Origin: Roseococcus suduntuyensis
GTDB lineage: Bacteria > Pseudomonadota > Alphaproteobacteria > Acetobacterales > Acetobacteraceae
Assembly: GCF_014196305.1 (NCBI RefSeq)
Contig: NZ_JACIDJ010000001.1
Location: forward strand, 1,226,290-1,290,289
Reading direction: 5' to 3'
Length of the DNA: 64,000 bases
Numbering within the stretch: the first letter of the stretch is position 1; each line of letters opens with the position of its first letter. Made by a program: the position numbers and the translations under genes. The notes under the pieces were generated by a model that did not search any database, was not told the DNA's origin, and saw nothing but the letters and a program-made list of their open reading frames with translations. Positions 22,596 to 57,547 of the stretch are shown here, piece after piece.

Positions 22596-22621
22596 GTAAC
22601 CCCGGCCGCGCGCGCGGCGAA
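22596..22621 (+). promoter_or_regulatory. Candidate ECF promoter upstream of the sigma gene
   Basis: GTAACC at 22596-22601, 16 bases, then CGAA at 22618-22621, 38 bases before the ATG at 22659. The same layout, GTAACC-N16-CGTA, occurs upstream of the flavin reductase gene at 23893. The AAC core and a CGAA/CGTA -10 are typical of ECF sigma promoters, so autoregulation is likely. Recognition by this sigma factor is inferred. Confidence 0.65.
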
Positions 22622-22658
22622 AACATGGCGTGAACGCCGCGAAACCGGGCTAGGCTCC

Positions 22659-23255
22659 ATGTCCCATGCCCAACCTCTCTGTCTGATGCTGGCCCCCGGT
22701 CAGGTGGCGCGCGATGCGCGTGACCTCCGCTGGTCCGCCCTCATGGCCGCGGCCCAGGAGGGGGATGGGGCGGCCTATGCCACGCTGCTGGCCGAATGCC
22801 TGCCATTGCTGCGCGCCATCTGCCGCGCCCGGCTGCGCGACGCGACCGAGGCCGAGGACGCCGTGCAGGACACGCTGCTGACCCTGCACCGCGTGCGCCA
22901 CACCTATGACCCCGCGCGCCCCTTCCGCCCCTGGGTGGCCGCCCTCGCGGAGCGCCGGGCGCTCGACCGGGCGCGCCGGCGCGGCCGTCAGGTGGCGCGC
23001 GAGACCCTGCTGGACGACGCGGCCGAGCTGGGCGCCGAGGGCGAGGCCGAGGAACGCCTGGCCGCCCGCCAGCTGCGCGAGGCGGTGGGCGGGCTGCCCG
23101 CTTCCCAGCGCACCGCCCTGCAACTGACGAAGATCGAGCAGCTTTCCCTCCAGGAAGCGAGCGCGCGTTCGGGCATGAGCATCGGCGCGCTGAAGGTCGC
23201 GACCCACCGCGCTCTGCACAGCCTGCGGCGCCGGCTCACCGGCGGTGCGCCATGA
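22659..23255 (+). CDS. ECF-type RNA polymerase sigma factor, partner of NrsF
   Basis: This is a 198-residue sigma-70 family protein. Region 2 spans about residues 32-100 (LRDATEAEDAVQDTLLTLHR, then RPFRPWVAALAERRALDRAR). Region 4 spans about 140-192 (LPASQRTALQL, then QEASARSGMSIGALKVATHR). Its stop overlaps the start of an NrsF-like anti-sigma gene, the standard pairing of SigF-type ECF factors known from Caulobacter, which respond to metal or oxidative stress. The first ATG at 22659 is used; another in-frame ATG lies at 22686. A candidate cognate promoter precedes the gene. Confidence 0.9.
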   Translation: MSHAQPLCLMLAPGQVARDARDLRWSALMAAAQEGDGAAYATLLAECLPLLRAICRARLRDATEAEDAVQDTLLTLHRVRHTYDPARPFRPWVAALAERRALDRARRRGRQVARETLLDDAAELGAEGEAEERLAARQLREAVGGLPASQRTALQLTKIEQLSLQEASARSGMSIGALKVATHRALHSLRRRLTGGAP

Positions 23256-23896
23256 GGACCGAGGAGATGATCGCCCGGCTGGCCTGCGGCCTGCGGCCGG
23301 TGCGCCGGATGCCCTCGCCCCTGGTGCTGCTGGCGCTGTGGACGCTGCTGGCCGCCGCGGTCATCGGCCTCGCGGCCCTGATCTTCGGCACGCGGGCGGG
23401 GCTCGACCGCCCGATGACCGGCTTCGAGAGGATGCACAGCCTGGCCGCGCTGCTCACCGCGCTGCTTGCGGGCCTGGCGGCCTTCGAGCTTTCCCTGCCC
23501 GACCGCGACCGGCGCTGGGCCTGGCTGCCCCTGCCGGCCATCGGGCTGTGGCTGGGCACCATGGGCGTGGGCTGCGTGGGGGAGCTGGTGCGGGTGGGTC
23601 TCGACGGCATCCGCTTCCACGTCAGCTGGCCCTGCCTGCAATTCATCATCGGCATGGGGCTGCCGATGGCCGGGCTGATGCTGTGGTTGACACGGCACGC
23701 GGCCTGGATCAGGCCGGGGCCGGTGGCGGCGTTCAGTGCCCTGTCCGCCGCCGCCTTCGCCAGCATCGGCCTGACCCTGGTGCACCCCACCTTCGGCCCG
23801 CTGATGGTGCTGGCCTGGCACGGGGTGGCGGTGCTGGCGGTGACGGGGCTGGCGGCGCTGTTCGGCCCGCGCCTCGCCTGGCGCGTTCCGGCGTAA
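23252..23896 (+). CDS. nrsF: NrsF (DUF1109) family anti-sigma factor
   Basis: This is a 214-residue membrane protein with six predicted transmembrane helices and a short N-terminal cytoplasmic piece. Two cysteines, Cys108 (GVGCVGEL) and Cys128 (SWPCLQF), sit where the conserved sensing cysteines of NrsF proteins lie; a third, Cys12, is in the N-terminus. NrsF holds its ECF sigma factor at the membrane and releases it when thiols are attacked by metals or oxidants. It overlaps the sigma gene by ATGA. The -35 of the next promoter overlaps its stop codon. Confidence 0.9.
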   Translation: MRTEEMIARLACGLRPVRRMPSPLVLLALWTLLAAAVIGLAALIFGTRAGLDRPMTGFERMHSLAALLTALLAGLAAFELSLPDRDRRWAWLPLPAIGLWLGTMGVGCVGELVRVGLDGIRFHVSWPCLQFIIGMGLPMAGLMLWLTRHAAWIRPGPVAAFSALSAAAFASIGLTLVHPTFGPLMVLAWHGVAVLAVTGLAALFGPRLAWRVPA

Positions 23897-23918
23897 CCTT
23901 CCGCCCCGGCCGCGCGTA
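23893..23918 (+). promoter_or_regulatory. Candidate ECF promoter for the downstream seven-gene run
   Basis: GTAACC at 23893-23898, 16 bases, then CGTA at 23915-23918, 30 bases before the ATG at 23948. It repeats the spacing and -35 of the site at 22596. This is the evidence that the flavin reductase and the following genes form the regulon of the neighbouring sigma factor. Confidence 0.65.
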
Positions 23919-23947
23919 ACGGCCATAGACCCCGAAACGGACACCCC

Positions 23948-25408
23948 ATGGCCCACCCGCGCACCCCCCGGCTGAAGAATGGCGTGCTGCACACCGATAT
24001 CTGCGTGATCGGCGCGGGGTCGGGCGGGCTGTCGGTGGCGGCGGGGGCGGTGCAGATGGGCGCCTCGGTCGTGCTGATCGAGAAGGGCGAGATGGGGGGC
24101 GACTGCCTGAACACGGGCTGCGTGCCGTCCAAGTCGCTCATCGCCGCCGCCCATGCGGCCCATGCGGCGCGGCAGGCGGGGCGCTTCGGCATCCATCTGC
24201 CGCCGCCGGAGGTGGAGTTCGCCGGCGTCCATCGCCACATCCATGGGGTGATCGCCTCCATCGCCCCGCATGACAGCGTGGAGCGCTTCGAGGGGTTGGG
24301 CTGCACCGTGATCCGCGCCGAGGCGCGCTTCACCGCGCCGGACCGGCTGGAGGCGGGCGGGCAGGTGGTGCGCGCGCGGCGCTTCGTCATCGCCACCGGC
24401 TCCCGCGCCGCGGTGCCGCCCATCCCGGGGCTCGACCGGGTGCCGCACCTCACCAATGAGAGCGTCTTCGACCTGAAGGACCGGCCGGACCACCTGGTGG
24501 TGATGGGCGGCGGGCCGATCGGGGTGGAGATGGCCCAGGCCTTCCGCCGCCTGGGCTCGGCGGTGACGGTGCTGGAGCGCGCCACCATCCTGCCGCGCGA
24601 CGAGCCCGAGGCCGTCGCCCTGCTGCGTGGCCACCTGCTGGCTGAGGGCGTAACCATCGAGGAGGGGGCTCAGGTGGCCGCGCTGCATCCCGGCGCCGAA
24701 GGCCAGGGGCTTGAGGTGGAGTTCGACCAGGCCGGCCGTCGCCGCACGCTGCGCGCCTCGCATCTGCTGGTGGCGGCGGGGCGGCAGCCCAACATCGAGA
24801 ATCTGGGGCTGGAGGCGGCGGGGGTGGACCACACCCCGCGCGGCATCACGGTGGATGGTGGGCTGCGCACCAGCAACCGGCGCATCCTCGCCGTGGGCGA
24901 CGTGGCGGGCGGGCCGCAATTCACCCATGTGGCGGGGTATCACGCGGGCATCGTCATTCGCCGCGCCCTGTTCGGCCTGCCGGCGAAGGCGGACTACCGC
25001 GCGCTGCCCTGGGTGACCTACACCGATCCCGAACTCGCCCATGTCGGCATGGGCGAGGCCGAGGCGCGCGAGGCCGGCGAGGCGGTGACGGTGCTGACCG
25101 AATCCCTTTCCGGCAATGACCGCGCCCGTGCCGAGGGCGCGGGGGAGGGACTGGCCAAGATCGTCCTCGGCGCGCGCGGGCGCATCCTGGGCGCCACCAT
25201 CCTGGCCCCGCGCGCGGGCGAGATGATCGGGCTGTGGGGGCTGGCCATCCAGAAGCGCCTCAAGGTGGGCGACGTGGCGCAGATGATGGCGCCCTATCCC
25301 ACCATGTCCGAAATCTCGAAGCGGGCGGCGGGGTCCCATTACACGCCATCGCTTTTCTCGGCGCGCACGCGCTTCCTGGTGGGTCTGATCCAGCGGGTGC
25401 TGCCGTGA
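23948..25408 (+). CDS. FAD-dependent pyridine nucleotide-disulfide oxidoreductase, mercuric-reductase-like
   Basis: This is a 486-residue flavoprotein of the Lpd/MerA/glutathione reductase family. The FAD site GAGSGG is near residue 22, the redox pair Cys53 and Cys58 lies in GGDCLNTGCVPSK, the NAD(P)H site GGGPIGVEM is near 196, and the second FAD motif AVGDVAGG is near 316. The C-terminal segment reads APYPTMSE where Lpd enzymes have the catalytic HAHPT motif, so the His base is absent. There is no N-terminal MerA metal-binding domain. It probably reduces a small disulfide or an oxidant rather than lipoamide. It is the first gene after the candidate ECF promoter and overlaps the TVP38 gene. 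Confidence 0.88.
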   Translation: MAHPRTPRLKNGVLHTDICVIGAGSGGLSVAAGAVQMGASVVLIEKGEMGGDCLNTGCVPSKSLIAAAHAAHAARQAGRFGIHLPPPEVEFAGVHRHIHGVIASIAPHDSVERFEGLGCTVIRAEARFTAPDRLEAGGQVVRARRFVIATGSRAAVPPIPGLDRVPHLTNESVFDLKDRPDHLVVMGGGPIGVEMAQAFRRLGSAVTVLERATILPRDEPEAVALLRGHLLAEGVTIEEGAQVAALHPGAEGQGLEVEFDQAGRRRTLRASHLLVAAGRQPNIENLGLEAAGVDHTPRGITVDGGLRTSNRRILAVGDVAGGPQFTHVAGYHAGIVIRRALFGLPAKADYRALPWVTYTDPELAHVGMGEAEAREAGEAVTVLTESLSGNDRARAEGAGEGLAKIVLGARGRILGATILAPRAGEMIGLWGLAIQKRLKVGDVAQMMAPYPTMSEISKRAAGSHYTPSLFSARTRFLVGLIQRVLP

Positions 25409-26106
25409 GGTGGCTGCGCGACAGGCGGCTCTGGCTGGCGCTGGCGGCCATCGCGCTGCTGCTGGCGCTGCGCTTCACGGGGTTGGGGGAATTCCTCTCG
25501 CTGGAGACGCTGGCGCGGCACCGCGCGGCGCTGTCGGGCTTCGTGGCGGGCAACCCGCTGCTGGCGGGCGCGATCTATGTGGCGGTCTATGCCGCGGCGG
25601 TGGCGCTTTCCGTGCCGGGGGCGGTGATCCTGACGCTGACGGGGGGCTTCCTGTTCGGCGCGCTCTGGGGCACGGCCATGGCGGTGGTGGGCGCGACGCT
25701 GGGGGCCACGGGCGTCTTCCTCTTCGCCAAGCTGCTCTTCGGCCCCAACGCCCTGGACCGCTTCGGCGCGCCGGCGCGGCGCCTGGCCGAGGCCATCCGG
25801 CGCAACGCCGCCTCCTATCTGCTGGTGCTGCGCCTGGTGCCGCTGTTCCCCTTCTTCCTGGTGAACCTGGTGCCGGCTTTCGTGGGGGTGCGGCTGCCGG
25901 TCTATGTCGTGACCACCTTCCTCGGCATCATTCCCGGCACGGCGGTGTTCAGCCTGACCGGGGCGGGGCTGGGCAACATCCTGGATGCGGGCGGGACGTT
26001 GGATTTGCGCTCGGTGCTGTCGCCGGAAATCCTGGCGGGGCTGCTGGGGCTGGCCGCCTTGTCGCTGGCGGCCATCCCCCTCAAAAACCGTTTCGCGGGG
26101 CGCTGA
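25405..26106 (+). CDS. TVP38/TMEM64 (VTT domain) family membrane protein
   Basis: This is a 233-residue protein with about six hydrophobic segments. The VTT/SNARE-associated domain spans about residues 60-190, with VPGAVILTLTGGFLFG and the later LRLVPLFPFFLVNLVPAF and TFLGIIPGTAVF blocks conserved. DedA-superfamily proteins of this type are lipid scramblase or transporter-like. The GTG at 25405 overlaps the previous stop as GTGA and is preferred to upstream starts inside the flavin reductase gene. TVP38 and DUF547 genes often occur together, as they do here. The substrate is unknown. Confidence 0.88.
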   Translation: MRWLRDRRLWLALAAIALLLALRFTGLGEFLSLETLARHRAALSGFVAGNPLLAGAIYVAVYAAAVALSVPGAVILTLTGGFLFGALWGTAMAVVGATLGATGVFLFAKLLFGPNALDRFGAPARRLAEAIRRNAASYLLVLRLVPLFPFFLVNLVPAFVGVRLPVYVVTTFLGIIPGTAVFSLTGAGLGNILDAGGTLDLRSVLSPEILAGLLGLAALSLAAIPLKNRFAGR

Positions 26107-26107
26107 C

Positions 26108-26905
26108 ATGGCCATCCTCCGCCGCGCCTTCCCTGGCCTTGCCGTCGCCGCCCTGCTGGTGCGGGAGAGCCGCGCCGCCGCGCCCGAGGCGCTGGAGGAA
26201 CTGCTGGCGCGGCATGTCGTGTTGCCGGAAGATGGCGTCAGCCGCGTGCGCTACGCCGCCTGGAAGGCGAGTGCGGCCGACATGGCGGCGCTCGACGCCT
26301 GGATCGCGGCCGCCGCCGCGCAGCGCCCCTCCGCCATGGCGCGGGGCGAGGCCTATGCCTATTGGGCCAACCTCTACAACGCGCTGACGTTGAAGGTGGT
26401 GCTGGACCGATACCCGGTGCGCTCCATCCGCGACATCCGCTCCACGGGCGTGCCCTTCGACCCGCGCCAGTTCATCGGCCCCTGGCGCACGCGGCTGGTG
26501 ACGGTGGAGGGCCGTCGCATGTCGCTCGACGACATCGAGCACGAGACGATGCGCCCGACCTTCCGCGACCCGCGGGTGCATTACGCGGTGAACTGCGCCT
26601 CGATCGGCTGCCCCAACCTGTGGCCGCGCGCCTGGCGGGCCGGGACGCTGGAAGCCGCCCTGGACGAGGCCGCGCGCGCCTTCGTGAACCACCCGCGCGG
26701 GGCCGTCTTCCGGGCGGATGGGGGGCTGCGCGTCTCCTCCATCTACAAGTGGTTCCAGGAGGATTTCGGGGGTTCCGAAGCGGGCGTCATCGCCCATCTC
26801 CGACACTACGCCACGGGGGAGCTGGCCCGGCGCCTTGCCACCGCCACCCGCATCGCCGAAGACGCCTATGACTGGGCATTGAACGACGCCGCGACCCTGT
26901 CCTGA
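26108..26905 (+). CDS. DUF547 domain-containing secreted protein
   Basis: This is a 265-residue protein with a short N-terminal export signal (AFPGLAVAALLVRESRAAA). The DUF547 domain covers about residues 75-235, with its signature pieces YWANLYNALTLKVVL, DIEHETMRP, VHYAVNCASIGCPNL and VSSIYKWFQEDFGG. The Asn-Cys-Ala and His residues resemble a papain-like catalytic arrangement proposed for the family, but no activity is established. The ATG at 26108 follows the TVP38 stop by one base, so it belongs to the same operon. Confidence 0.88.
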   Translation: MAILRRAFPGLAVAALLVRESRAAAPEALEELLARHVVLPEDGVSRVRYAAWKASAADMAALDAWIAAAAAQRPSAMARGEAYAYWANLYNALTLKVVLDRYPVRSIRDIRSTGVPFDPRQFIGPWRTRLVTVEGRRMSLDDIEHETMRPTFRDPRVHYAVNCASIGCPNLWPRAWRAGTLEAALDEAARAFVNHPRGAVFRADGGLRVSSIYKWFQEDFGGSEAGVIAHLRHYATGELARRLATATRIAEDAYDWALNDAATLS

Positions 26906-26918
26906 AGGAGCAACGCCC

Positions 26919-27875
26919 TTGTCCATCCGCACCCAGGACGCGCCGCCGCGCCTGAACCCCGCCAAGTTCCAGCACCCGGAGGTGACGCTGAAGGGCGAGC
27001 GCCGGGCGCAGGTGGCGCTGACGGCGCTGGACACGCTGTGGGTGAACACTGGCACGCTGTGCAACATCACCTGCGCGAACTGCTACATCGAGAGCAGCCC
27101 GCGCAATGACGCGCTGGTCTACATCACGCCCGCCGAGGTCGCGGCCTACCTGGACGAGGCGGAAGGGATGGGCGTGCGCGAGGTGGGCTTCACCGGCGGC
27201 GAGCCCTTCATGAACCCGGGCCTGGTGCCCATGCTGGACGACGTGCTGTCGCGCGGGCTGCACGCCCTGGTGCTGACCAACGCCATGCAGCCCATGCGCC
27301 GCTACGCGGAGCCGCTGCGTGCGCTGCTGGCGAGGCATGGCGGGGCGCGGCTGGTGGTCCGCGTCAGCCTCGACCACCACGACGCGGCGGTGCACGACAT
27401 CGAGCGCGGCGCGGGCAGCTATGCCCGCACCATGGAAGGGCTGGAATGGATGGCGCGCGAGGGCTTCACGATCCATGTCGCGGGCCGGGTGGGCTTCGGC
27501 CATGACGGCGAGGCGGCCATGCGCGCGGGCTATGCGGCGGTCTTCGCGCGCCATGGCATTCCGGTGGATGCCACGGACCCCGTGGCGCTGATGCTGTTCC
27601 CGGAGATGGATGCGGGGCGCGACGTGCCCGAGATCACGGAGGCCTGCTGGGGCATCCTGGGCAAGTCGCCGGACAGCCTGATGTGCGCCTCCTCGCGCAT
27701 GGTGGTGAAGCGCCGCGGCGCCGAACGTCCCGCCGTGCTGGCCTGCACCCTGCTGGCCTATGACGCGCGCTTCGAGCTGGGCGCCACGCTGGAAGAGGCC
27801 GCGCGGCCGGTGGCCCTGAACCACCCGCATTGCGCGACCTTCTGCGTGCTGGGAGGGGCCTCATGCTCGCGTTGA
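26919..27875 (+). CDS. Radical SAM protein of unknown specificity
   Basis: This is a 318-residue radical SAM enzyme. The [4Fe-4S] motif CNITCANC is near residue 47, followed by the SAM-binding GFTGGEPFMNPG near 89. The C-terminus has further cysteines (LACTLLAYD, HCATFCVLGGASC) that could hold an additional cluster, though the protein is shorter than classical SPASM enzymes. The start is a TTG at 26919, with a strong AAGGAG ribosome site 8 bases before it. The gene overlaps phnD by 13 bases. I cannot name the substrate; its position between DUF547 and a phosphonate-type transporter suggests work on a small imported or exported compound. Confidence 0.85.
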   Translation: MSIRTQDAPPRLNPAKFQHPEVTLKGERRAQVALTALDTLWVNTGTLCNITCANCYIESSPRNDALVYITPAEVAAYLDEAEGMGVREVGFTGGEPFMNPGLVPMLDDVLSRGLHALVLTNAMQPMRRYAEPLRALLARHGGARLVVRVSLDHHDAAVHDIERGAGSYARTMEGLEWMAREGFTIHVAGRVGFGHDGEAAMRAGYAAVFARHGIPVDATDPVALMLFPEMDAGRDVPEITEACWGILGKSPDSLMCASSRMVVKRRGAERPAVLACTLLAYDARFELGATLEEAARPVALNHPHCATFCVLGGASCSR

Positions 27876-28729
27876 CCCGTCGCGCCGCACTGGGCGCCGC
27901 GCTGGGCGCCCCGCTGGGCGCCGTCCTGGCCACGCCGGCGCTGGCGCAATCCCGCGCGCCGCTGCGCTTCGCCGTCGGGCCGTTCCAGCCCACGGCGGGC
28001 GACACGCGCCGGGCCTTCGAGCCCTTCTTCGCGCATCTGGCGCAGCGGCTCGGCCGGCCCTACGAGCTGACCGTCACGACCGACTGGGCGGGCATCGCGG
28101 TGGCCATGGGTTCGGGCCAGGTGGATGCGGCCTGGATGGGGCCCTGGGGCTATGTGCTGGCCCATGCGCGGGCGGGCGCCGAGGCGCTGGCGACGGTGCT
28201 CTATGAAGGGCGGCCGACCTACCACGCCATCATCATCGCGCGCGAAGGGGTGAACATCGCGCGCTTCCCCGAGGATGCGCGGGGCATGTCCATCTCCTTC
28301 GCCGATGCCGGTTCCACCTCGGGCTGGCTCATTCCGCACCATTGGTTCCAGACCCAGGGCGTGGATCCGCGCACCTTCTTCCGCTACCGCGACGGGGCGA
28401 GCCACGCGGCCAACGTGATTTCGGTGGCCTCGGGCCAGGTGGATCTGGCGACGGATTTCGACCGGAACCTGAACGCGATGATCGCCTCCGGCCGGGTGCG
28501 CGCCGAGCAGGTGCGGGTGGTCTGGCGCAGCGCGCCGCTGCCCAATGACGCGCTGGCCGCGCGGCGGGACCTGGATGGGGCGACCCGCGCGGCGCTGCGC
28601 GAAGCCGCCCTTGCCACCGGCGCGGAGGTGCTGCCGCCGCGCTACACCGGCTGGGTGGCCGCGACACCCGAGACCTACGCGCCCATCGAGGCCGCGGGCC
28701 GCGCCCTGGGGCGGCTGCGGACCTCGTGA
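27863..28729 (+). CDS. PhnD-like periplasmic substrate-binding protein
   Basis: This is a 288-residue ABC receptor of the phosphate/phosphite/phosphonate-binding (PhnD) family. The signal peptide ends near ALAQ (about residue 26). The family pattern is visible in FAVGPFQPTAGD, VDAAWMGPWGYV and SISFADAGSTSGWLIP (the binding loop with Ser/Thr residues). Ligands of this family are oxyanions such as phosphonates, but related receptors bind other compounds. The start at 27863 lies inside the radical SAM gene with a GGGAGG site upstream. The gene is coupled to phnE by a GTGA overlap. Confidence 0.88.
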   Translation: MLALTRRAALGAALGAPLGAVLATPALAQSRAPLRFAVGPFQPTAGDTRRAFEPFFAHLAQRLGRPYELTVTTDWAGIAVAMGSGQVDAAWMGPWGYVLAHARAGAEALATVLYEGRPTYHAIIIAREGVNIARFPEDARGMSISFADAGSTSGWLIPHHWFQTQGVDPRTFFRYRDGASHAANVISVASGQVDLATDFDRNLNAMIASGRVRAEQVRVVWRSAPLPNDALAARRDLDGATRAALREAALATGAEVLPPRYTGWVAATPETYAPIEAAGRALGRLRTS

Positions 28730-29478
28730 CGCTACGACAGGCCGCCTTCTGGGCGGGGTTCGCCGCGCTGCTGGGCGTCTCGGTCTGGACGGTGGCGCCC
28801 GACCCGGCGCGGCTGGCGGCGGGCCTGCCGCGGCTGCTGGGCTGGCTGGCCGGTTCCTGGCCGCCGGATTTCTCGGGGGCGGGCGACATCGCGCGCCGCG
28901 CCGGCGAGACGGTGGGCATTGCCACGCTGGGCACGCTCTGCGCCGCGTTGCTGGCATTCCCGCTGGCGCTGCTGGCGACCAGGCCGCTTTCGCCCTTCCT
29001 GGCGCTGTATCAGCCCACGCGCGGCGTGTTGGACGGGCTGCGCGGGACGGATGGCTTCGTCTTCGCGCTGCTGTTCGTGGCCGCCGTGGGGCTTGGCCCC
29101 TTCGCGGGGATGCTGGGGGTGGCGCTGCATTCGGCGGGGTCCTTGGCCAAGCTGTGGTCGGAGAGCATGGAAACCGCCGACCCGCGCCCGGCCGAGGCCA
29201 TCACCGCCGTCGGCGCCACACGGATGCAGGTGGCGCTGTTCGCCCTGATCCCGCAGACCATGCCGCAGAACCTCTCCCACCTGCTCTATGTGTGGGAGTT
29301 CAACATCCGCGCCTCCACCGTGCTGGGCCTGGTGGGCGCGGGCGGGCTGGGGCAGGAGTTGAAGAACGCCGTGGACCTGCTGGATTTCAACCGGGTGCTG
29401 GCCATCCTCATCGTCATCATCGCGCTGACGCTGGCGGCGGACCGGATCAGCGCCACGCTGCGGCGGCATCTGGCATGA
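28726..29478 (+). CDS. PhnE-like ABC transporter permease
   Basis: This is a 250-residue inner-membrane permease with about six helices. The binding-protein-dependent transport motif, which docks the ATPase, is present as ESMETADPRPAEAITAVGA near residue 145. The RASTVLGLVGAGGLG block near 197 is typical of PhnE/MetI-like permeases. It overlaps phnD (GTGA at 28726) and the next gene (ATGA at 29475). No ATPase (PhnC) gene is present in the operon or elsewhere in the window, so the transporter must borrow one or be incomplete. Confidence 0.88.
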   Translation: MTLRQAAFWAGFAALLGVSVWTVAPDPARLAAGLPRLLGWLAGSWPPDFSGAGDIARRAGETVGIATLGTLCAALLAFPLALLATRPLSPFLALYQPTRGVLDGLRGTDGFVFALLFVAAVGLGPFAGMLGVALHSAGSLAKLWSESMETADPRPAEAITAVGATRMQVALFALIPQTMPQNLSHLLYVWEFNIRASTVLGLVGAGGLGQELKNAVDLLDFNRVLAILIVIIALTLAADRISATLRRHLA

Positions 29479-30338
29479 TGGAACTGGACGCGCCCTGGCT
29501 CGTCTTCGGCGGGCCCTATTCCAATTCGCACGCCACGCGCGCCCTGTTGGCGGAGGCCGCGCGGCGCGGCATCCCGTCCGCGCGCATTCTCTGCACCGGC
29601 GATGTGGTGGCCTATGCGGCCGATGCGGCGGCCACCACCGCGCTGGTGATGGGAAGCGGCATCCATGTGCTGATGGGCAATTGCGAGGAACAGCTTGCCG
29701 CCGGCGCCGGGGATTGCGGCTGCGGTTTCGAGGAGGGCACGGCCTGCGACCTGCTGGCGCGCGGCTGGTATGCCCATGCGCTGCGTGAGGTGACGCCCGC
29801 GCAGCGCGACTGGATGGGCGCCCTGCCGCGCCGCCTCGTGCTGCGCCTGCCCGATGGGCGGCGGCTGGCCGTGGTGCATGGTGGCGCCACCGAGATCAAC
29901 CGCTTCCTCTTCCGCTCGACGCCCGAGAATGTGCTGGCGGCCGAGATCGCGGCCACGGGCTGCGATGGCGTCGTCGCGGGCCATAGCGGCATTCCCTTCG
30001 CGCGGCGGGTGGGGCAGGGGGTGTGGATCAATGCCGGCGCCATCGGCATGCCCGCGCATGACGGCACGCCGCGCGTGTGGTTCAGCCTCCTTAGGCCGCG
30101 CGCCGAGGGGCTGGAGGTGAGTTTCCACGCGCTGGATTACGACCACGCCGCCGCAGCCGCCGCCATGCGCCGCGCGCGCTTGGCGGAGGGCTACGCCACG
30201 GCATTGGAAACGGGGCTCTGGCCCTCGGAGGACGTGCTGCCACAAGCCGACCGCGCCCGGCGCGGCGTGGCGCTGGAGCCCCCCGCCTTCGCCTGGGCGG
30301 TCAGGCCGCCATCCGGTCCCGGCGCATGCGCAGCGTGA
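29475..30338 (+). CDS. Calcineurin-like metallophosphoesterase, YfcE/MJ0936-like
   Basis: This is a 287-residue phosphoesterase-fold protein. Metal-site motifs are CTGDVVAYA (GDxxxY block, near residue 38), MGNCEEQ (GNCE instead of GNHE, near 66), VVHGG (near 133) and AGHSG (near 170). The first motif, normally DxHGN, reads GGPYSN, so the first metal ligand set is degenerate. A cysteine-rich insert (GDCGCGFEEGTAC) is unusual. The ATG at 29475 overlaps the phnE stop. The 3' end overlaps the convergent kinase gene by 38 bases. The substrate is unknown. Confidence 0.8.
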   Translation: MMELDAPWLVFGGPYSNSHATRALLAEAARRGIPSARILCTGDVVAYAADAAATTALVMGSGIHVLMGNCEEQLAAGAGDCGCGFEEGTACDLLARGWYAHALREVTPAQRDWMGALPRRLVLRLPDGRRLAVVHGGATEINRFLFRSTPENVLAAEIAATGCDGVVAGHSGIPFARRVGQGVWINAGAIGMPAHDGTPRVWFSLLRPRAEGLEVSFHALDYDHAAAAAAMRRARLAEGYATALETGLWPSEDVLPQADRARRGVALEPPAFAWAVRPPSGPGACAA

Positions 30339-31305
30339 CGACCAGCCCCTCGGGTGCCCATTCATAGGCGATGCCGCCGCCGAACTGGTGCATCATGCTG
30401 CGCTCGATCAAATCGCCGCCATAGCCGGCGCCAGGCGCGGGCTGGGTCGCGGTCGGGCCGCCATGCTCGGCCCATACCAGCACCACCTCCTCGTCTGGGG
30501 CGTCGCATGACAGGTCCAGCGTGCCGGCGGGCACCGACAAGGCGCCATGCTTGAGGGAGTTGGTCGAGAGTTCATGGATGACGAGCGCCAGCGTCGTGGC
30601 CGCGCCCTCGTTCAGGTCCATCCGTGGCACGGACACGCGAATACGGCTGGAGGCGGGATCGTCCTCGTCATAGGCCTGCAGCAGCACCGCCAGCAGGTCG
30701 CCCATCAGCACCGCCTCCACCGGCCGCCCGCCGCGCGGCCGCACCAGGTCATGCGCGCGGCCCAGCGCCATCAGCCGCTGGGTGAGGTCGAGCGCCATGT
30801 CCTCCGTGGTTTCGCTGCTGCGCGAGGTGATGCGCGCCAGCCCGCAGGCGACGAGCAGCAGGTTCTGCACCCGGTGGCTCATCTCGCCGGCCAGGAGCTG
30901 GTGGCTTTCCTCCGCCTGCTTGCGGCGCGTGACGTCGAGGAAGATGCCGCGCATCACGCCATGCTCGATATCCGCGTCATTCCCCTGGCCGCGCGCCGAC
31001 ACCCAGCGGATATCGTCGCCGGAGAGGATGCGGAAATCGATCTCATAGCCGCCCACGATGGCGCGTGTGGCCGCGAAGGCGGCGCGCACGCGGTCGAGGT
31101 CGGTCGGATGGATCTTCGCCGAAAGCTCCCGGAAGGTCGTGACGGTGGCCCCGGCGAGGTCCCACAGCTCCATGGCCCGCCGGTCGAGGCCGATATGGTC
31201 GGACTCCACGTTCCAGCGCCAGAGGCCGACGCCCGCGGCCTCGATGGCCGCGCGCAGATGCGTCAAGTCCCAATCCGAAGCATAGGTAGGGTCGGCGGAG
31301 GGCAT
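30301..31305 (-). CDS. Soluble PAS-HisKA_2/HWE sensor histidine kinase
   Basis: This is a 334-residue kinase without transmembrane helices. A PAS domain spans about residues 12-130 (AIEAAGVGLWRWNVES and GIFLDVTRRK at its end). The phosphoacceptor box is EMSHRVQNLLLVACGL near 148, of the HWE/HisKA_2 kind. The ATPase part has HELSTNSLKHGAL near 248 and a glycine-rich GAGYGG. Such kinases in alphaproteobacteria often sense light, redox or general stress. The start at 31305 is chosen because the PAS region begins soon after and the upstream extension is not conserved in style. No response regulator is adjacent. Confidence 0.85.
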   Translation of the reverse strand: MPSADPTYASDWDLTHLRAAIEAAGVGLWRWNVESDHIGLDRRAMELWDLAGATVTTFRELSAKIHPTDLDRVRAAFAATRAIVGGYEIDFRILSGDDIRWVSARGQGNDADIEHGVMRGIFLDVTRRKQAEESHQLLAGEMSHRVQNLLLVACGLARITSRSSETTEDMALDLTQRLMALGRAHDLVRPRGGRPVEAVLMGDLLAVLLQAYDEDDPASSRIRVSVPRMDLNEGAATTLALVIHELSTNSLKHGALSVPAGTLDLSCDAPDEEVVLVWAEHGGPTATQPAPGAGYGGDLIERSMMHQFGGGIAYEWAPEGLVVTLRMRRDRMAA

Positions 31306-31550
31306 TGGGCAGGTGTCCTGATCGGAGGGATGCCCCGTCGGGTGTCGGCTGCCCTCGGGCAGGGAGGCCGGAGGGACGCGGCGCGCCCGAACCAACGTGT
31401 ATAAGGCATTCGGAAGGGGGGGGCGAGCCTGCGGTCGACTGGCCGGAACCCTGGCGCCGGATGGAAAAATGCAGCGGCCCGGTGTCTTTCCGCCGGCATC
31501 GCGCGCCCCCGGAGATTTCGCGACCGGCGATGATGTTCTAGACCAGGGGG

Positions 31551-32945
31551 ATGGATTTCGACACCGTCTATGACGTGCTGGTGGTGGGCGGCGGCAATGC
31601 CGCGCTCTCCGCCGCCATCACCGCCCGCAAGCTCGGCGCCTCGGTGGTGGTGGCCGAACACGCCCCCAAGCCCATGCGCGGCGGCAATTCGCGCCACACC
31701 CGCAACCTGCGGGCGCTGCACCCGGCACCGACCGACGTGCTGACCGAAAGCTACCTGGAAGAGGAATACTGGGACGACCTGCTGCGCGTCACGGGCGGCC
31801 GCACGGATGAGCACCTGGCCCGCATGTGCATCCGCGCGAGCGAACATGCGCCTGGTTTCCTGCGCGATTGCGGGGTGGTGTTCCAGCCCTCGCTCTCCGG
31901 CACGCTGAGCCTGTCGCGCACCAACGCCTTCTTCCTGGGTGGGGGCAAGGCGCTGGTGAACGCGCTGTACCGCACGGCGGAGAAGCTCGGCATCACCATC
32001 CTCTACGACACCGAGGTGCAGCACATCGCCGTCGAGGAAGGCCATGCGACGGAGGCCATCGTCTCCTGGCGCGGCTTTCCGCAGCGCATCCGCTTCAAGG
32101 CGCTGGTGGCCTCCGCCGGCGGGTTCCAGGCGAACCGCGAATGGCTGCGGCAATACTGGGGCGATGCTGCGGACCGCTTCCAGGTGCGCGGCACGCCCTA
32201 TGCCCAGGGCACGGTGCTGAAGGACCTGCTGGCCTCCGGCGTGCAGGAGGTGGGCGACCCCACGCAGTTCCATGCGGTGGCCAACGACGCCCGCGCGCCG
32301 ATGGAGGATGGCGGGCTGGCCATGCGGCTGGACTGCGTGCCTTTCTCCATCGTGGTGAACCAGAAGGTCGAGCGGTTCTACGACGAGGGCGAGGATGTCT
32401 GGCCCAAGCGCTACGCCATCTGGGGGCGGATGATCGCGCAGCAGCCGATGTCCCGCGCCTATGCCATCACCGACAGCCAGGCGCTGCACAACTACCTGCC
32501 GAGCGTATTCCCGCCGATGCGCGCGAACAGCGTGCGTGAGTTGGCCGGGATGATGGACCTGGACCCGGACAAGCTCGAAGCCCTGGTCGCGCGCTACAAT
32601 GCCAGCGTGCGCGACGGCACCTTCACGCCCATGAAGCCCGATGACTGCCGGACCGAGGGCCTGACCCCGCCGAAAAGCCACTGGGCGCGGCGCATCGAGG
32701 TGCCGCCCTTCATCGGGCACCCGCTGGCGCCGGGCATCACCTTCACCTTCCTGGGCGTGAAGGTGAACGACAAGGCGCGGGTGATCATGGCGGACGGCAA
32801 GCCCAGTGCGAACATGTTCGCCAGCGGCGAGATCATGGCTGGCAATATCCTGGGCCAGGGCTATCTGGCGGGCTTCGGAATGACGATCGGCACCGTCTTC
32901 GGGCGGCTGGCCGGGGAGGGGGCGGCCCAAAATGCGCGAAACTGA
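31551..32945 (+). CDS. tcuA: FAD-dependent tricarballylate dehydrogenase TcuA
   Basis: This is a 464-residue flavoprotein of the fumarate reductase/succinate dehydrogenase flavoprotein family. The FAD motif GGGNAALSAA is near residue 13 and a C-terminal FASGEIMAGNILGQGYLAG closes the FAD site. TcuA oxidises tricarballylate to cis-aconitate and passes electrons to TcuB. The call rests on length and the immediate partner, a TcuB-like gene that overlaps it by 14 bases. Neither the transporter TcuC nor the regulator TcuR is nearby. Confidence 0.85.
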   Translation: MDFDTVYDVLVVGGGNAALSAAITARKLGASVVVAEHAPKPMRGGNSRHTRNLRALHPAPTDVLTESYLEEEYWDDLLRVTGGRTDEHLARMCIRASEHAPGFLRDCGVVFQPSLSGTLSLSRTNAFFLGGGKALVNALYRTAEKLGITILYDTEVQHIAVEEGHATEAIVSWRGFPQRIRFKALVASAGGFQANREWLRQYWGDAADRFQVRGTPYAQGTVLKDLLASGVQEVGDPTQFHAVANDARAPMEDGGLAMRLDCVPFSIVVNQKVERFYDEGEDVWPKRYAIWGRMIAQQPMSRAYAITDSQALHNYLPSVFPPMRANSVRELAGMMDLDPDKLEALVARYNASVRDGTFTPMKPDDCRTEGLTPPKSHWARRIEVPPFIGHPLAPGITFTFLGVKVNDKARVIMADGKPSANMFASGEIMAGNILGQGYLAGFGMTIGTVFGRLAGEGAAQNARN

Positions 32946-34095
32946 GACCACGGCCGAAGCCCGGCGGCAGATGGAAATCTGCAATGCCTGCCGTTACTGC
33001 GAGGGCTATTGCGCGGTCTTCCCGGCCATGGCGATGCGGCGGGAATTCTCCACCGGGGACCTGACGCACCTGGCCAACCTCTGCCATGGCTGCAAGGGCT
33101 GCTACCACGCCTGCCAATACGCGCCGCCGCACGCCTTCGGGGTGAACATCCCGCAGACCTTCGCCACGCTCCGCGCCGAAAGCTATGCCGAATACGCCTG
33201 GCCGCCCGCCATGGGCCGGCTGTTCGAGCGCAACGGCACGGTGGTGGTGCTGGTGACCTTCCTCGCACTCACGGCCGTGCTGCTGCTGACCATGGGGCTG
33301 CAGGACCCGGCCATCCTCTACACGGCGCAGACGGGCACGGGCGCCTTCTTCCGCGTGATCCCCTACTGGCTGATGACGGGGCTGGCGACGGTCACCTTCG
33401 GCTATGCGCTCTTCGCCATGGCGATGGGCGCGCTGCGCTACTGGCGCGGCACGGCGCCGGGGGCGGGCCAAAGGCCCATCACGCCGGCACCCGTCGCCAC
33501 CGCGGCCTTCGACATCCTGACGCTGCGAAACCTGGGCGGCGGCGGGCATGGCTGCAACGACCTGGACGACAGCTTCGCGCAGAAGCGGCGCTGGCTGCAC
33601 CACGCCATGTTCTACGGCTTCATGCTGTGCTTCGCGGCGACGACGACGGGCGCCTTCTACCACCACTTCCTGGGCTGGAAGTCACCGCACCACTTCCTGA
33701 GCCTGCCCGTGCAGTTCGGCACCTGGGGCGGGGTGCTGCTGTGCATCGGCACGGCGGGGTTGATCTGGGTGAAGACGGTGACGGACCCGGTGCCGGTGGC
33801 GAAGAAGCTGCTGGGCAGCGAATACGCCATGCTGTCGCTGCTGTTCCTGGTGTCCATCACCGGGCTGCTGCTGCTGGTGGTGCGGCACACGGGGGCGATG
33901 GGCGTGATGCTGGCGGTGCATCTGGGCCTGGTCTTGGCCTTCTTCCTGCTGCTGCCCTACAGCAAGATGGTGCATGGGGTGTATCGGGGCCTGGCCCTGC
34001 TGCGCAACGCGCAGGAGCGTGGGGCGGAGACCGGTGCCGCCCCGGCCAAGGCGCCTTCCGGCAAGGCCACGCTGAAGGCGGCGAGCGCGAGCTGA
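32932..34095 (+). CDS. tcuB: Tricarballylate utilization protein TcuB (iron-sulfur, heme b membrane protein)
   Basis: This is a 387-residue membrane electron carrier. Two N-terminal iron-sulfur motifs are seen: CNACRYCEGYC (near 17-27) and CHGCKGCYHAC (near 50-60). About six transmembrane helices follow, with several histidines (WLHHAMFY, FYHHFLGW) as likely heme b ligands. It re-oxidises the TcuA flavin and passes electrons to quinone. The ATG at 32932 overlaps tcuA. The C-terminus is an Ala/Lys-rich tail without features. Confidence 0.9.
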   Translation: MRETETTAEARRQMEICNACRYCEGYCAVFPAMAMRREFSTGDLTHLANLCHGCKGCYHACQYAPPHAFGVNIPQTFATLRAESYAEYAWPPAMGRLFERNGTVVVLVTFLALTAVLLLTMGLQDPAILYTAQTGTGAFFRVIPYWLMTGLATVTFGYALFAMAMGALRYWRGTAPGAGQRPITPAPVATAAFDILTLRNLGGGGHGCNDLDDSFAQKRRWLHHAMFYGFMLCFAATTTGAFYHHFLGWKSPHHFLSLPVQFGTWGGVLLCIGTAGLIWVKTVTDPVPVAKKLLGSEYAMLSLLFLVSITGLLLLVVRHTGAMGVMLAVHLGLVLAFFLLLPYSKMVHGVYRGLALLRNAQERGAETGAAPAKAPSGKATLKAASAS

Positions 34096-41002: not shown

Positions 41003-41020
41003 CCACTCGCGCGCCGCCAG

Positions 41021-41130
41021 ACGAATCCGGCCGCACGGCGGCCGGCGCCGCCTACCCCACCGCGCCACCCGCGCATCCGCCGCGCGGCGAAAGCCCAGCG
41101 CGCGGAGCGCGCGCCCGGCGCCTGAGGGCG
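41021..41130. repeat. Family A intergenic repeat, copy 3
   Basis: About 110 bp, beginning ACGAATCCGGCCGCACGGCG and ending CGCCTGAGGGCG. It is followed by copy 4 exactly 140 bp later, with a 30-base spacer. The two are nearly identical, apart from a variable middle section (about 41052-41080). Confidence 0.8.
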
Positions 41131-41160
41131 TGAATCACGATATGGTGGGCGCTCAGTCAG

Positions 41161-41270
41161 ACGAATCCGGCCGCAAGGCGGCCGGCGCCGCCCCACCGAC
41201 CGCGCCACAGGCGCACCCGTCGCGCGGCGAAAGCCCAGCGCGCGGAGCGTGCGCCCGGCGCCTGAGGGCG
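41161..41270. repeat. Family A intergenic repeat, copy 4 (tandem with copy 3)
   Basis: Same element as copy 3. Both start after CAG with ACGAATCCGG and end CCTGAGGGCG. The 386-base gap between the TRAP permease and the RND gene holds only these two copies and a short stretch (41271-41388) that should carry the promoter of the RND genes. I saw no gene in the gap. Confidence 0.8.
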
Positions 41271-41388
41271 TAGATCATGGGGTGTTACAGATCATTTCAT
41301 GGCGCGGAATTGGCCTGCGCGGGGAGTGCCTTTCGTGGGATAACCGCGTGGCAATGCAACCTCGCCCCGCCGGCCGGCCTTCCTTCCG

Positions 41389-56859: not shown

Positions 56860-57444
56860 ATGACCACCGAACCCAACGCCAAGCCCGACACCGCCCCCGA
56901 AGACGAGACCGTGGCCGCCGCCGAGGCGCCGCCGCCCCCCGAGCCCACGCCGGAGGAGCGGATCGCGGCCCTTGAAGCCGCGCTGGCCGAGATGAAGGAC
57001 CGCTGGCTGCGCGCCGAGGCCGAGATCCAGAACATCCGCAACCGCGCCCGCGACGATGTCGAGAAGGCGCGCAACTTCGCCGTGCAGAAATTCGCGGCCG
57101 ATGTGGTGGAAGCGGCGGAGAACCTGCGCCGCGGCCTCGACGCCCTGCCCGCCGCGGCCGAGGACGAGCCCGAGATCATCACCAAGCTGCGCGGCGGCTT
57201 CGAGGGTGTCGAGCGCTTCCTGCTGCAGCGCATGGAAGCGAACGGCGTGGCCCGCAAGCCCGCCCAGGGCGAGACCTTCAACCCCGACCTGCACCAGGCG
57301 ATGAGCGAGGCCCCGGCGCCGGAGGGTGTGGCGCCGGGCACCATCCTCCAGGCCTGGTCCTCGGCCTGGACGCTGAATGGGCGCCTGCTCAAGCCGGCCA
57401 TGGTGGTGGTGGCGGGCCAGCCCGCGGCGGAGCCGCAGAAGTAG
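56860..57444 (+). CDS. grpE: Nucleotide exchange factor GrpE
   Basis: This is a 194-residue DnaK co-chaperone. The N-terminus is acidic and Ala/Pro-rich. A long coiled coil follows (about residues 30-85, EERIAALEAALAEMKDRWL and IQNIRNRARDDVEKARNFAV). The beta domain has the family end PGTILQAWSSAWTLNGRLLKPAMVVV. The start at 56860 lies 31 bases after the hrcA stop. The last codons (AAEPQK plus stop) are repeated in tandem downstream. dnaK and dnaJ are not in the window. Confidence 0.95.
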   Translation: MTTEPNAKPDTAPEDETVAAAEAPPPPEPTPEERIAALEAALAEMKDRWLRAEAEIQNIRNRARDDVEKARNFAVQKFAADVVEAAENLRRGLDALPAAAEDEPEIITKLRGGFEGVERFLLQRMEANGVARKPAQGETFNPDLHQAMSEAPAPEGVAPGTILQAWSSAWTLNGRLLKPAMVVVAGQPAAEPQK

Positions 57445-57547
57445 CGCCGCGGCGGAGCCGCATAAGTAACGCCGCGGCGGAGCCGCATAAGTAACGCCGC
57501 GGCGGAGCCGCAGAGGTAGCACTCGGCGGAGCCGCAGAAGCAACGCC
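57424..57547 (+). repeat. Tandem echo of the grpE 3' end (five units of about 25 bp)
   Basis: The unit GCGGCGGAGCCGCAGAAGTA plus GCGCC starts inside grpE at 57424 (codons for AAEPQK and stop). It recurs at 57449, 57474, 57499 and 57524, with small changes (the copies at 57449 and 57474 are identical, with AAGTAACGCC ends). The array ends 2 bases before the stop of the convergent SMP-30 gene. Each unit holds a GGCGGAGCCGC palindrome-like core. Confidence 0.9.

Follow-up and report, generated by a model that had tools for sequence, protein, structure and literature searches.

What is the function of seven tightly packed genes in Roseococcus suduntuyensis (Alphaproteobacteria, Acetobacteraceae) that lie directly behind a sigma factor gene and its putative anti-sigma gene? 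They were found in a stretch of 64,000 nucleotides (contig NZ_JACIDJ010000001.1, positions 1,226,290 to 1,290,289; the window), where genes for a flavin disulfide reductase, a TVP38 protein, a DUF547 protein, a radical S-adenosylmethionine (SAM) protein, PhnD, PhnE and a metallophosphoesterase occupy positions 23948-30338 of the forward strand. This cassette is real, conserved and accompanied by SigF-type boxes, and it is best seen as a variation on the ArsS-type cassette, not as an entirely new kind of system. Judged from sequence, there is about an even chance that the unit represents a form of the ArsS (arsenosugar-type) cassette under SigF/NrsF control, which would couple import of a small oxyanion to formation of a carbon-heteroatom bond. 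The direct basis for this reading is the gene set, its coupling, the boxes, the sister relation of the radical SAM protein to ArsS, the partly shared neighbours, and the importer and phosphoesterase homologues in a true ArsS cassette.

The coordinates and Pfam matches bear out the preliminary description of this DNA, which had proposed seven coupled genes with overlaps or gaps of at most 13 bases. Neighbouring genes are spaced by -4 (reductase/TVP38), +1 (TVP38/DUF547), +13 (DUF547/radical SAM), -13 (radical SAM/PhnD), -4 (PhnD/PhnE) and -4 bases (PhnE/phosphoesterase), negative values being overlaps, and the putative start codons are TTG for the radical SAM gene and GTG for the TVP38 and PhnE genes. 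The reductase start lies 51 bases behind the end of the NrsF-family gene, which in turn overlaps the sigma gene by 4 bases. All nine proteins exceeded the Pfam gathering score, each in its own family.

The candidate extracytoplasmic function (ECF) promoter of the preliminary description also exceeds what chance would give. With one mismatch permitted, the pattern GTAACC-N16-CGWAA has two sites in the 64 kb, compared with 0.12 expected, and none of 100 shuffles had two. Both sites head a unit, the one at 22596 leading to the sigma gene and the one at 23893 to the reductase, and this search of the window found no box in front of the radical SAM gene. The window therefore holds the combination that marks SigF-NrsF (ECF16) systems, a sigma gene with an adjacent NrsF-family gene and a box of the GTAACC-N16-CGAA type, which is the SigF box of Caulobacter (PMC3511200; this and the other papers cited are drawn on through excerpts of their text). 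The Caulobacter SigF regulon is reported to contain the YedY (MsrP-type) gene and to respond to chromium and cadmium (PMC3511200), and an NrsF-type system of Brucella to respond to hypochlorous acid (HOCl; PMC8315932). NrsF residues C108 and C128 were present in 12 of 12 aligned rows; their separation is 20 residues versus 50 for Caulobacter C131 and C181, a comparison made by spacing only.

Boxes were also surveyed in 87 related loci (numbered with L), comprising the best 80 of 391 stretches of genome contigs with relatives of the radical SAM protein, together with L110 and L162-L167 (2.82 Mb of strand sequence). A box was assigned by script to a gene if it lay up to 200 bases upstream of the estimated gene start or up to 40 bases inside the gene. 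Forty exact boxes were found, which are not independent because the loci are kin, and 37 of them fell at the starts of sigma (13), radical SAM (9), rhodanese (8) and reductase (7) genes. The other three (L043, L049, L054) precede mutually similar open frames; the L054 frame, the only one of the three scanned, and its L040 counterpart are TIGR04282 glycosyltransferases over the cut-off. These positions indicate that unit heads carry a SigF-type box where the cassette is split. The radical SAM/PhnDE unit of L040, L047 and L048, for example, is preceded by a SigF-type box of its own and so is probably transcribed separately within the same regulon. The R. suduntuyensis genome holds six boxes, versus two for the reversed pattern. 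Besides the two of the window, one precedes a YHS-domain protein gene (142.4 bits, cut-off 70) and another an MsrP gene (391.6 bits, cut-off 207) (L299, L302), and two sit inside called frames and look like chance.

The relation of the radical SAM protein to ArsS was found by profile-profile comparison, in which residues 8-318 aligned with a probability of 99.8 (E 4.9e-27) and cysteines 256, 276, 305, 309 and 316 coincided with ArsS cysteines. The protein has both the CX3CX2C motif and the extra C-terminal cysteines of ArsS. The C-terminal motif, a pattern composed after both families had been seen, occurred in 113 of 113 rows of the family of the window's protein and in 21 of 21 ArsS rows, and was absent from all 21 radical SAM proteins of other kinds. 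A tree of 67 rows, which set the two families against these 21 proteins only, several on long branches, placed the family and ArsS as sister clades (97/86), with two Rv1681-like proteins as the next branch (96/83). The Rv1681-type NCBIfam score of the window's protein was 97.5 against a cut-off of 380. No solved ArsS structure was found by sequence, the best match of an ArsS query being SkfB (E 2.6e-4). The predicted structure of the window's protein (predicted local distance difference test, pLDDT, 85.1; predicted template modelling score, pTM, 0.86) matched SkfB and BlsE best; these are general radical SAM folds, so the fold search does not discriminate. ArsS was present in 74 of 150 genomes surveyed, none of them in the Alphaproteobacteria among the matches listed, and these genomes did not overlap with the 22 that were positive for the radical SAM family; ArsS does occur in this class (L276, L338). 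ArsS is reported to adenosylate arsenic during oxo-arsenosugar synthesis (PMC12159101), and SsArsS to act together with SsArsM (PMC8552651). In open PMC text, a scope outside which subscription papers and preprints fall, no report was found that joins TVP38, DUF547 and radical SAM, nor one that joins Rv1681 and radical SAM.

The two families also share neighbours. Twenty family loci outside the Acetobacteraceae were compared at a match threshold of E 1e-15 with 20 ArsS loci and 20 control stretches, one each from 16 ArsS genomes and four family genomes at places chosen by the analyst; among the loci compared, L149-L151 are of one genus and L133-L135 of one family. Counts in family, ArsS and control loci were 7, 7 and 0 for MerA-like reductases, 4, 4 and 0 for TVP38, 1, 1 and 0 for DUF547, 4, 3 and 0 for glycosyltransferases, 4, 5 and 0 for ArsM, 1, 1 and 0 for fatty acid hydroxylase and 1, 0 and 0 for the phosphoesterase. 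CydDC, included as a check that the search works, gave 1, 0 and 3, and rhodanese, PhnD, PhnE, sigma and NrsF were found in none of the 20 loci of any set. At least one of the MerA-like, TVP38, DUF547, glycosyltransferase and ArsM-like types was present in 8/20 family loci, 13/20 ArsS loci and 0/20 controls. Three ArsM-like proteins beside the family were scanned and scored 168-183 of 263 bits, and are therefore called ArsM-like rather than ArsM. TVP38 and MerA share one frame in L148 and L149, which come from a different class of the same phylum; a fusion of this type has also been described for COG0398 DedA proteins (PMC10127716).

A closer link is provided by L276, from the same class as R. 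suduntuyensis. This locus encodes a true ArsS (445.7 bits), a TVP38-MerA fusion, a TIGR04282-like glycosyltransferase (by tblastn) and, both under their cut-offs, methylthioadenosine (MTA) phosphorylase-like and TIGR04283-like proteins. Beside this ArsS cassette lie genes for PhnC and for a phosphoesterase, PhnD and PhnE with 54, 57 and 58 percent identity, respectively, to the proteins of the window. L338, of the same genus, repeats the ArsS cassette with phosphoesterase, PhnD, PhnE and PhnC. Searches for the phosphoesterase found it in 6 of 398 phylum genomes and in 24 of 385 class genomes, R. suduntuyensis included. In the 23 other genomes of the class, its same-strand neighbour is the radical SAM gene in nine, with 22-117 bases between the matches, and an ArsS cassette is present in two. 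One of the nine, L331, also has the reductase, TVP38, sigma and NrsF genes, and a GTAACC-N16-CGAA box before the phosphoesterase. Phosphoesterases of the DCGCGF type were also seen in L298 and L346, in genomes of the class of 1.2-1.3 Mb, with neither radical SAM nor ArsS gene in the flank.

Among 41 genomes sampled around R. suduntuyensis, 23 have strong relatives of the radical SAM protein (E 1.4e-116 or better) and 34 have any match at E 0.001. PhnD of the window type (at least 79 percent identity) occurs in nine of them, with no copy more than 2 kb from the radical SAM gene. DUF547 of the window type (at least 72 percent) occurs in 11 and shares a contig with the radical SAM gene in 10 of these. 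In the best 80 of the 391 stretches, several with short flanks, at least one of reductase, TVP38, DUF547, PhnD and phosphoesterase was found in 25 loci. The individual counts were TVP38 20, phosphoesterase 18, reductase 17, PhnD 16, DUF547 16, PhnE 15, NrsF 15, sigma 14, rhodanese 9 and PhnC 8, with RecQ at 37 and CydD at 26. In L074, radical SAM, PhnD, PhnE and phosphoesterase genes lie between CydDC and OmpA-RecQ, the place of the solo copies, which suggests that the two kinds of radical SAM gene copy, solo and cassette, are orthologous. L164, L036 and L038 keep the reductase, TVP38 and radical SAM genes, and a search there for DUF547, PhnD, PhnE and phosphoesterase gave nothing better than E 0.009. 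The preliminary description had named two observations that would count against it. One, a neighbourhood not conserved in related genomes, did not apply, as conservation was looked for and found; the other, separate transcripts for reductase and transporter genes, applies in part to the relatives in which the transporter unit has its own box, and not, by box positions, to the window.

Two variations on the cassette were seen in relatives. In L031 (10954-11724), and similarly in L032, L163 and L165, a gene for a protein of about 256 residues with no NCBIfam or Pfam match separates the radical SAM gene from the PhnD gene; these are some of the relatives without PhnC. In the Acetobacteraceae loci L074, L090 and L110, genes for a second radical SAM protein, DUF547 and DoxX join the cassette; the second protein is TrsS-like, scoring about 100 bits in L074 and L110 against a cut-off of 490.

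The permease exceeded its equivalog cut-off, and PhnD scored 166.8 bits against 261.1. Other solved relatives of PhnD than HtxB were PhnD, PtxB, AioX and ArrX proteins, at 1e-24 or weaker. Trp52, Arg178 and Asp206 of HtxB were kept and Phe158 was replaced by His in 22 of 22 cassette PhnD rows, L276 included (21 distinct rows, as L278 and L037 are one contig), so that three of the four HtxB pocket residues remain. Non-cassette rows varied: L291 and L292 match the cassette pattern, L293 and L294 match HtxB, and L277 differs. In PtxB, a His at this place is reported to accompany a third oxygen that the Phe of HtxB blocks (PMC5700983), which makes a ligand with three oxygens plausible for the cassette proteins. 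Cysteine-based arsenite binding as in AioX is unlikely, given a PhnD that lacks cysteine and an AioX match of 1.9e-15 or weaker. Classical phosphonate use is not supported, since a Pfam scan of the nine genes showed no PhnC or carbon-phosphorus lyase family and PhnD is below its cut-off; PhnC-like genes of this genome lie in two other importer clusters.

Mercuric reductase MerA has a C-terminal vicinal cysteine pair. The cysteines of the window's reductase are at 19, 53, 58 and 119 only, and this protein was below both cut-offs, with 466 of 620 bits for NF004991 and 385.2 of 454.45 bits for MerA (TIGR02053). Mercury resistance was rejected on both counts. DUF547 had no solved relative at E 1.

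Features of the sigma/NrsF locus and the seven-gene unit
Feature	Positions	Strand	Evidence
SigF-type box before sigma gene	22596..22622	+	exact GTAACC-N16-CGWAA; equivalent place in 13 related loci
ECF sigma factor gene	22659..23255	+	PF04542 53.8 bits, PF08281 35.5 bits
NrsF-family anti-sigma gene	23252..23896	+	PF06532 78.2 bits; NF042994 22 of 300 bits (below cut-off)
SigF-type box before seven-gene unit	23893..23919	+	exact GTAACC-N16-CGWAA; box precedes reductase in 7 related loci
MerA-like flavin disulfide reductase without C-terminal cysteines	23948..25408	+	PF07992, PF02852
TVP38/VTT-domain membrane protein	25405..26106	+	PF09335 64.8 bits
DUF547 protein	26108..26905	+	PF04784 80 bits
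Radical SAM protein, family sister to ArsS	26919..27875	+	PF04055 62.6 bits
PhnD/HtxB-family periplasmic binding protein	27863..28729	+	PF12974 191.6 bits; HtxB E 3.1e-73
PhnE-type permease	28726..29478	+	TIGR01097 246.2 bits, cut-off 216.7
Metallophosphoesterase, GNCE + DCGCGF cysteine loop	29475..30338	+	PF12850 39.8 bits; motifs from alignment

Downstream, a convergent frame (30301-31395, reverse strand), taken by eye for an HWE-type histidine kinase, overlaps the phosphoesterase gene by 38 bases. Past it lie the tricarballylate genes TcuA and TcuB (31551-32945 and 32932-34095), both over the curated NCBIfam cut-off. The window also has a 140-base tandem repeat (41018-41271; 1.8 copies, 91 percent) and five copies of a 25-base unit (57422-57547), and no Rfam family or tRNA was found in it.

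In the mechanism we propose, metal or thiol-oxidant stress would cause NrsF to free the sigma factor. Together with an ATPase whose gene lies elsewhere, the binding protein and permease would import a small tetrahedral oxyanion, and the MerA-like flavoprotein would give reducing power or reduce the compound. The radical SAM enzyme would transfer a SAM-derived group, 5'-deoxyadenosyl by analogy with ArsS, to a heteroatom, most likely arsenic, gripped by the extra cysteines, and the phosphoesterase, DUF547 protein and TVP38 may act on, trim or move a sugar or lipid product. Arsenic is favoured because of the links to ArsS and ArsM. This scheme retains from the preliminary description the likely stress-type sigma control, oxyanion uptake, radical SAM modification and reduction, as well as the conservation. 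The phosphonate-like compound suggested there is doubtful because the binding protein is nearest to HtxB, and the set, said to have no described pathway, has a precedent in the related ArsS cassette. Membrane protection, the role given there to TVP38, is hypothetical.

Several observations weigh against the ArsS-type reading. The TIGR04167 (ArsS) score of the radical SAM protein is 61.6 bits versus a cut-off of 300, which rules out a true ArsS. The scan of the nine genes found no PhnC or other importer ATPase, no nucleoside phosphorylase and no glycosyltransferase in the unit, and PhnD, PhnE, sigma and NrsF genes were found in 0/20 family loci outside the Acetobacteraceae and 0/20 ArsS loci. 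Twelve of those 20 family loci lack all five types of neighbour, the flanks of 12 of the 23 phosphoesterase genes (some of them short) contain neither radical SAM nor ArsS, and the linking ArsS loci L276 and L338 belong to one genus. PhnD is without any cysteine. The chief points against arsenic are that no protein of the R. suduntuyensis genome is over the ArsM cut-off (best 58.8 of 263 bits) and that the nearest solved relative of PhnD is HtxB, a hypophosphite-binding protein. Speculatively, the two would be reconciled if the arsenical taken up were methylated beforehand. The unit may then be a second, ArsM-free route to carbon-arsenic (or carbon-phosphorus) sugars, in which the HtxB-like importer, its pocket open to a third oxygen, would take up a methylated arsenical or reduced oxyanion, the sister family of ArsS would adenosylate it, and SigF/NrsF would fire the system in metal- or chlorine-type stress; we regard this fuller version as unlikely.

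The HtxB relationship, with its PtxB-like His, also suits a different substrate. In a reduced-phosphorus system, phosphite, hypophosphite or methylphosphonate would enter through the importer, the radical SAM enzyme would make a carbon-phosphorus bond and the phosphoesterase would act on a phosphosugar. Phosphonate dehydrogenase and a phytanoyl-CoA dioxygenase family protein do appear among the annotations of operons that hold non-cassette PhnD relatives, but neither enzyme is among the nine genes scanned; moreover, importer and phosphoesterase also accompany true ArsS, and the kin and neighbours of the radical SAM family are ArsS, ArsM-like and MerA-like proteins, which leaves reduced phosphorus rather improbable. 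Lower still do we rate selenium or thiol redox protection, in which the cassette would handle selenite or repair oxidised sulfur or selenium compounds within the SigF response. The MsrP and YHS (seleno)domain protein genes behind the same box, an Nterm_to_SelD-type oxidoreductase beside the L110 and L276 cassettes and a weak match of PhnD to the TIGR04553 selenate transporter (86 of 250 bits) would fit it; the selenate model is, however, far under its cut-off whereas HtxB is close, and no selenium gene is among the nine scanned.

Alternatively, the genes may share a sigma factor and no pathway, as a loose stress regulon. The three loci reduced to reductase, TVP38 and radical SAM genes could be read in this way, as could the 55 of 80 loci without reductase, TVP38, DUF547, PhnD and phosphoesterase at the thresholds used. 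However, the absent genes are absent together, and genes of the same families repeatedly accompany both ArsS and the radical SAM family, in varied orders and taxa, so that we doubt this explanation. If the ArsS-type reading is correct, an unnamed radical SAM family with relatives in 391 stretches would be connected with the small group of enzymes for which carbon-arsenic bond formation has been reported. Its gene would acquire a regulator, a likely importer and a phosphoesterase as partner, and the family a testable function; SigF/NrsF-type control would be linked with organometalloid-type chemistry, and DUF547 and TVP38 proteins could be placed in a pathway.

Four known systems resemble parts of this locus. 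The HtxB/PtxB reduced-phosphorus importers have the closest relative of the binding protein, with Trp52 and the Arg178-Asp206 pair in common (PMC5700983), but the window has His for Phe158 of HtxB and, in the nine genes scanned, no ATPase gene and no enzyme oxidising phosphite or hypophosphite. In the Rv1680-Rv1681-type pair of a Mycolicibacterium vanbaalenii plasmid (L224; Actinomycetota), a PhnD/SsuA-family protein likewise adjoins a related radical SAM protein, which unlike that of the window lacks the C-terminal cysteine motif and has other partners, among them an acyl-CoA dehydrogenase and CcdA. A related radical SAM protein was also seen on another Actinomycetota plasmid (L226), beside glycosyltransferase, DUF2064 and selA/selD genes. 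With the SigF-NrsF regulon of Caulobacter crescentus the locus shares the sigma/NrsF pair, the GTAACC-N16-CGAA-type boxes and MsrP/YedY behind a box, although the seven-gene cassette is absent among the SigF genes named for Caulobacter in the available part of PMC3511200. The ArsS/ArsM arsenosugar cassette (for example on Pseudanabaena galeata plasmid pPg_02) combines TIGR04167 with MerA-like, TVP38 and TIGR04282/04283 proteins. The unit of the window differs from it in a radical SAM protein of the sister family below the ArsS cut-off, in the missing ArsM and in its SigF/NrsF-type boxes, and has in common with it the ArsS-type extra cysteines and the adjoining MerA-like reductase and TVP38.

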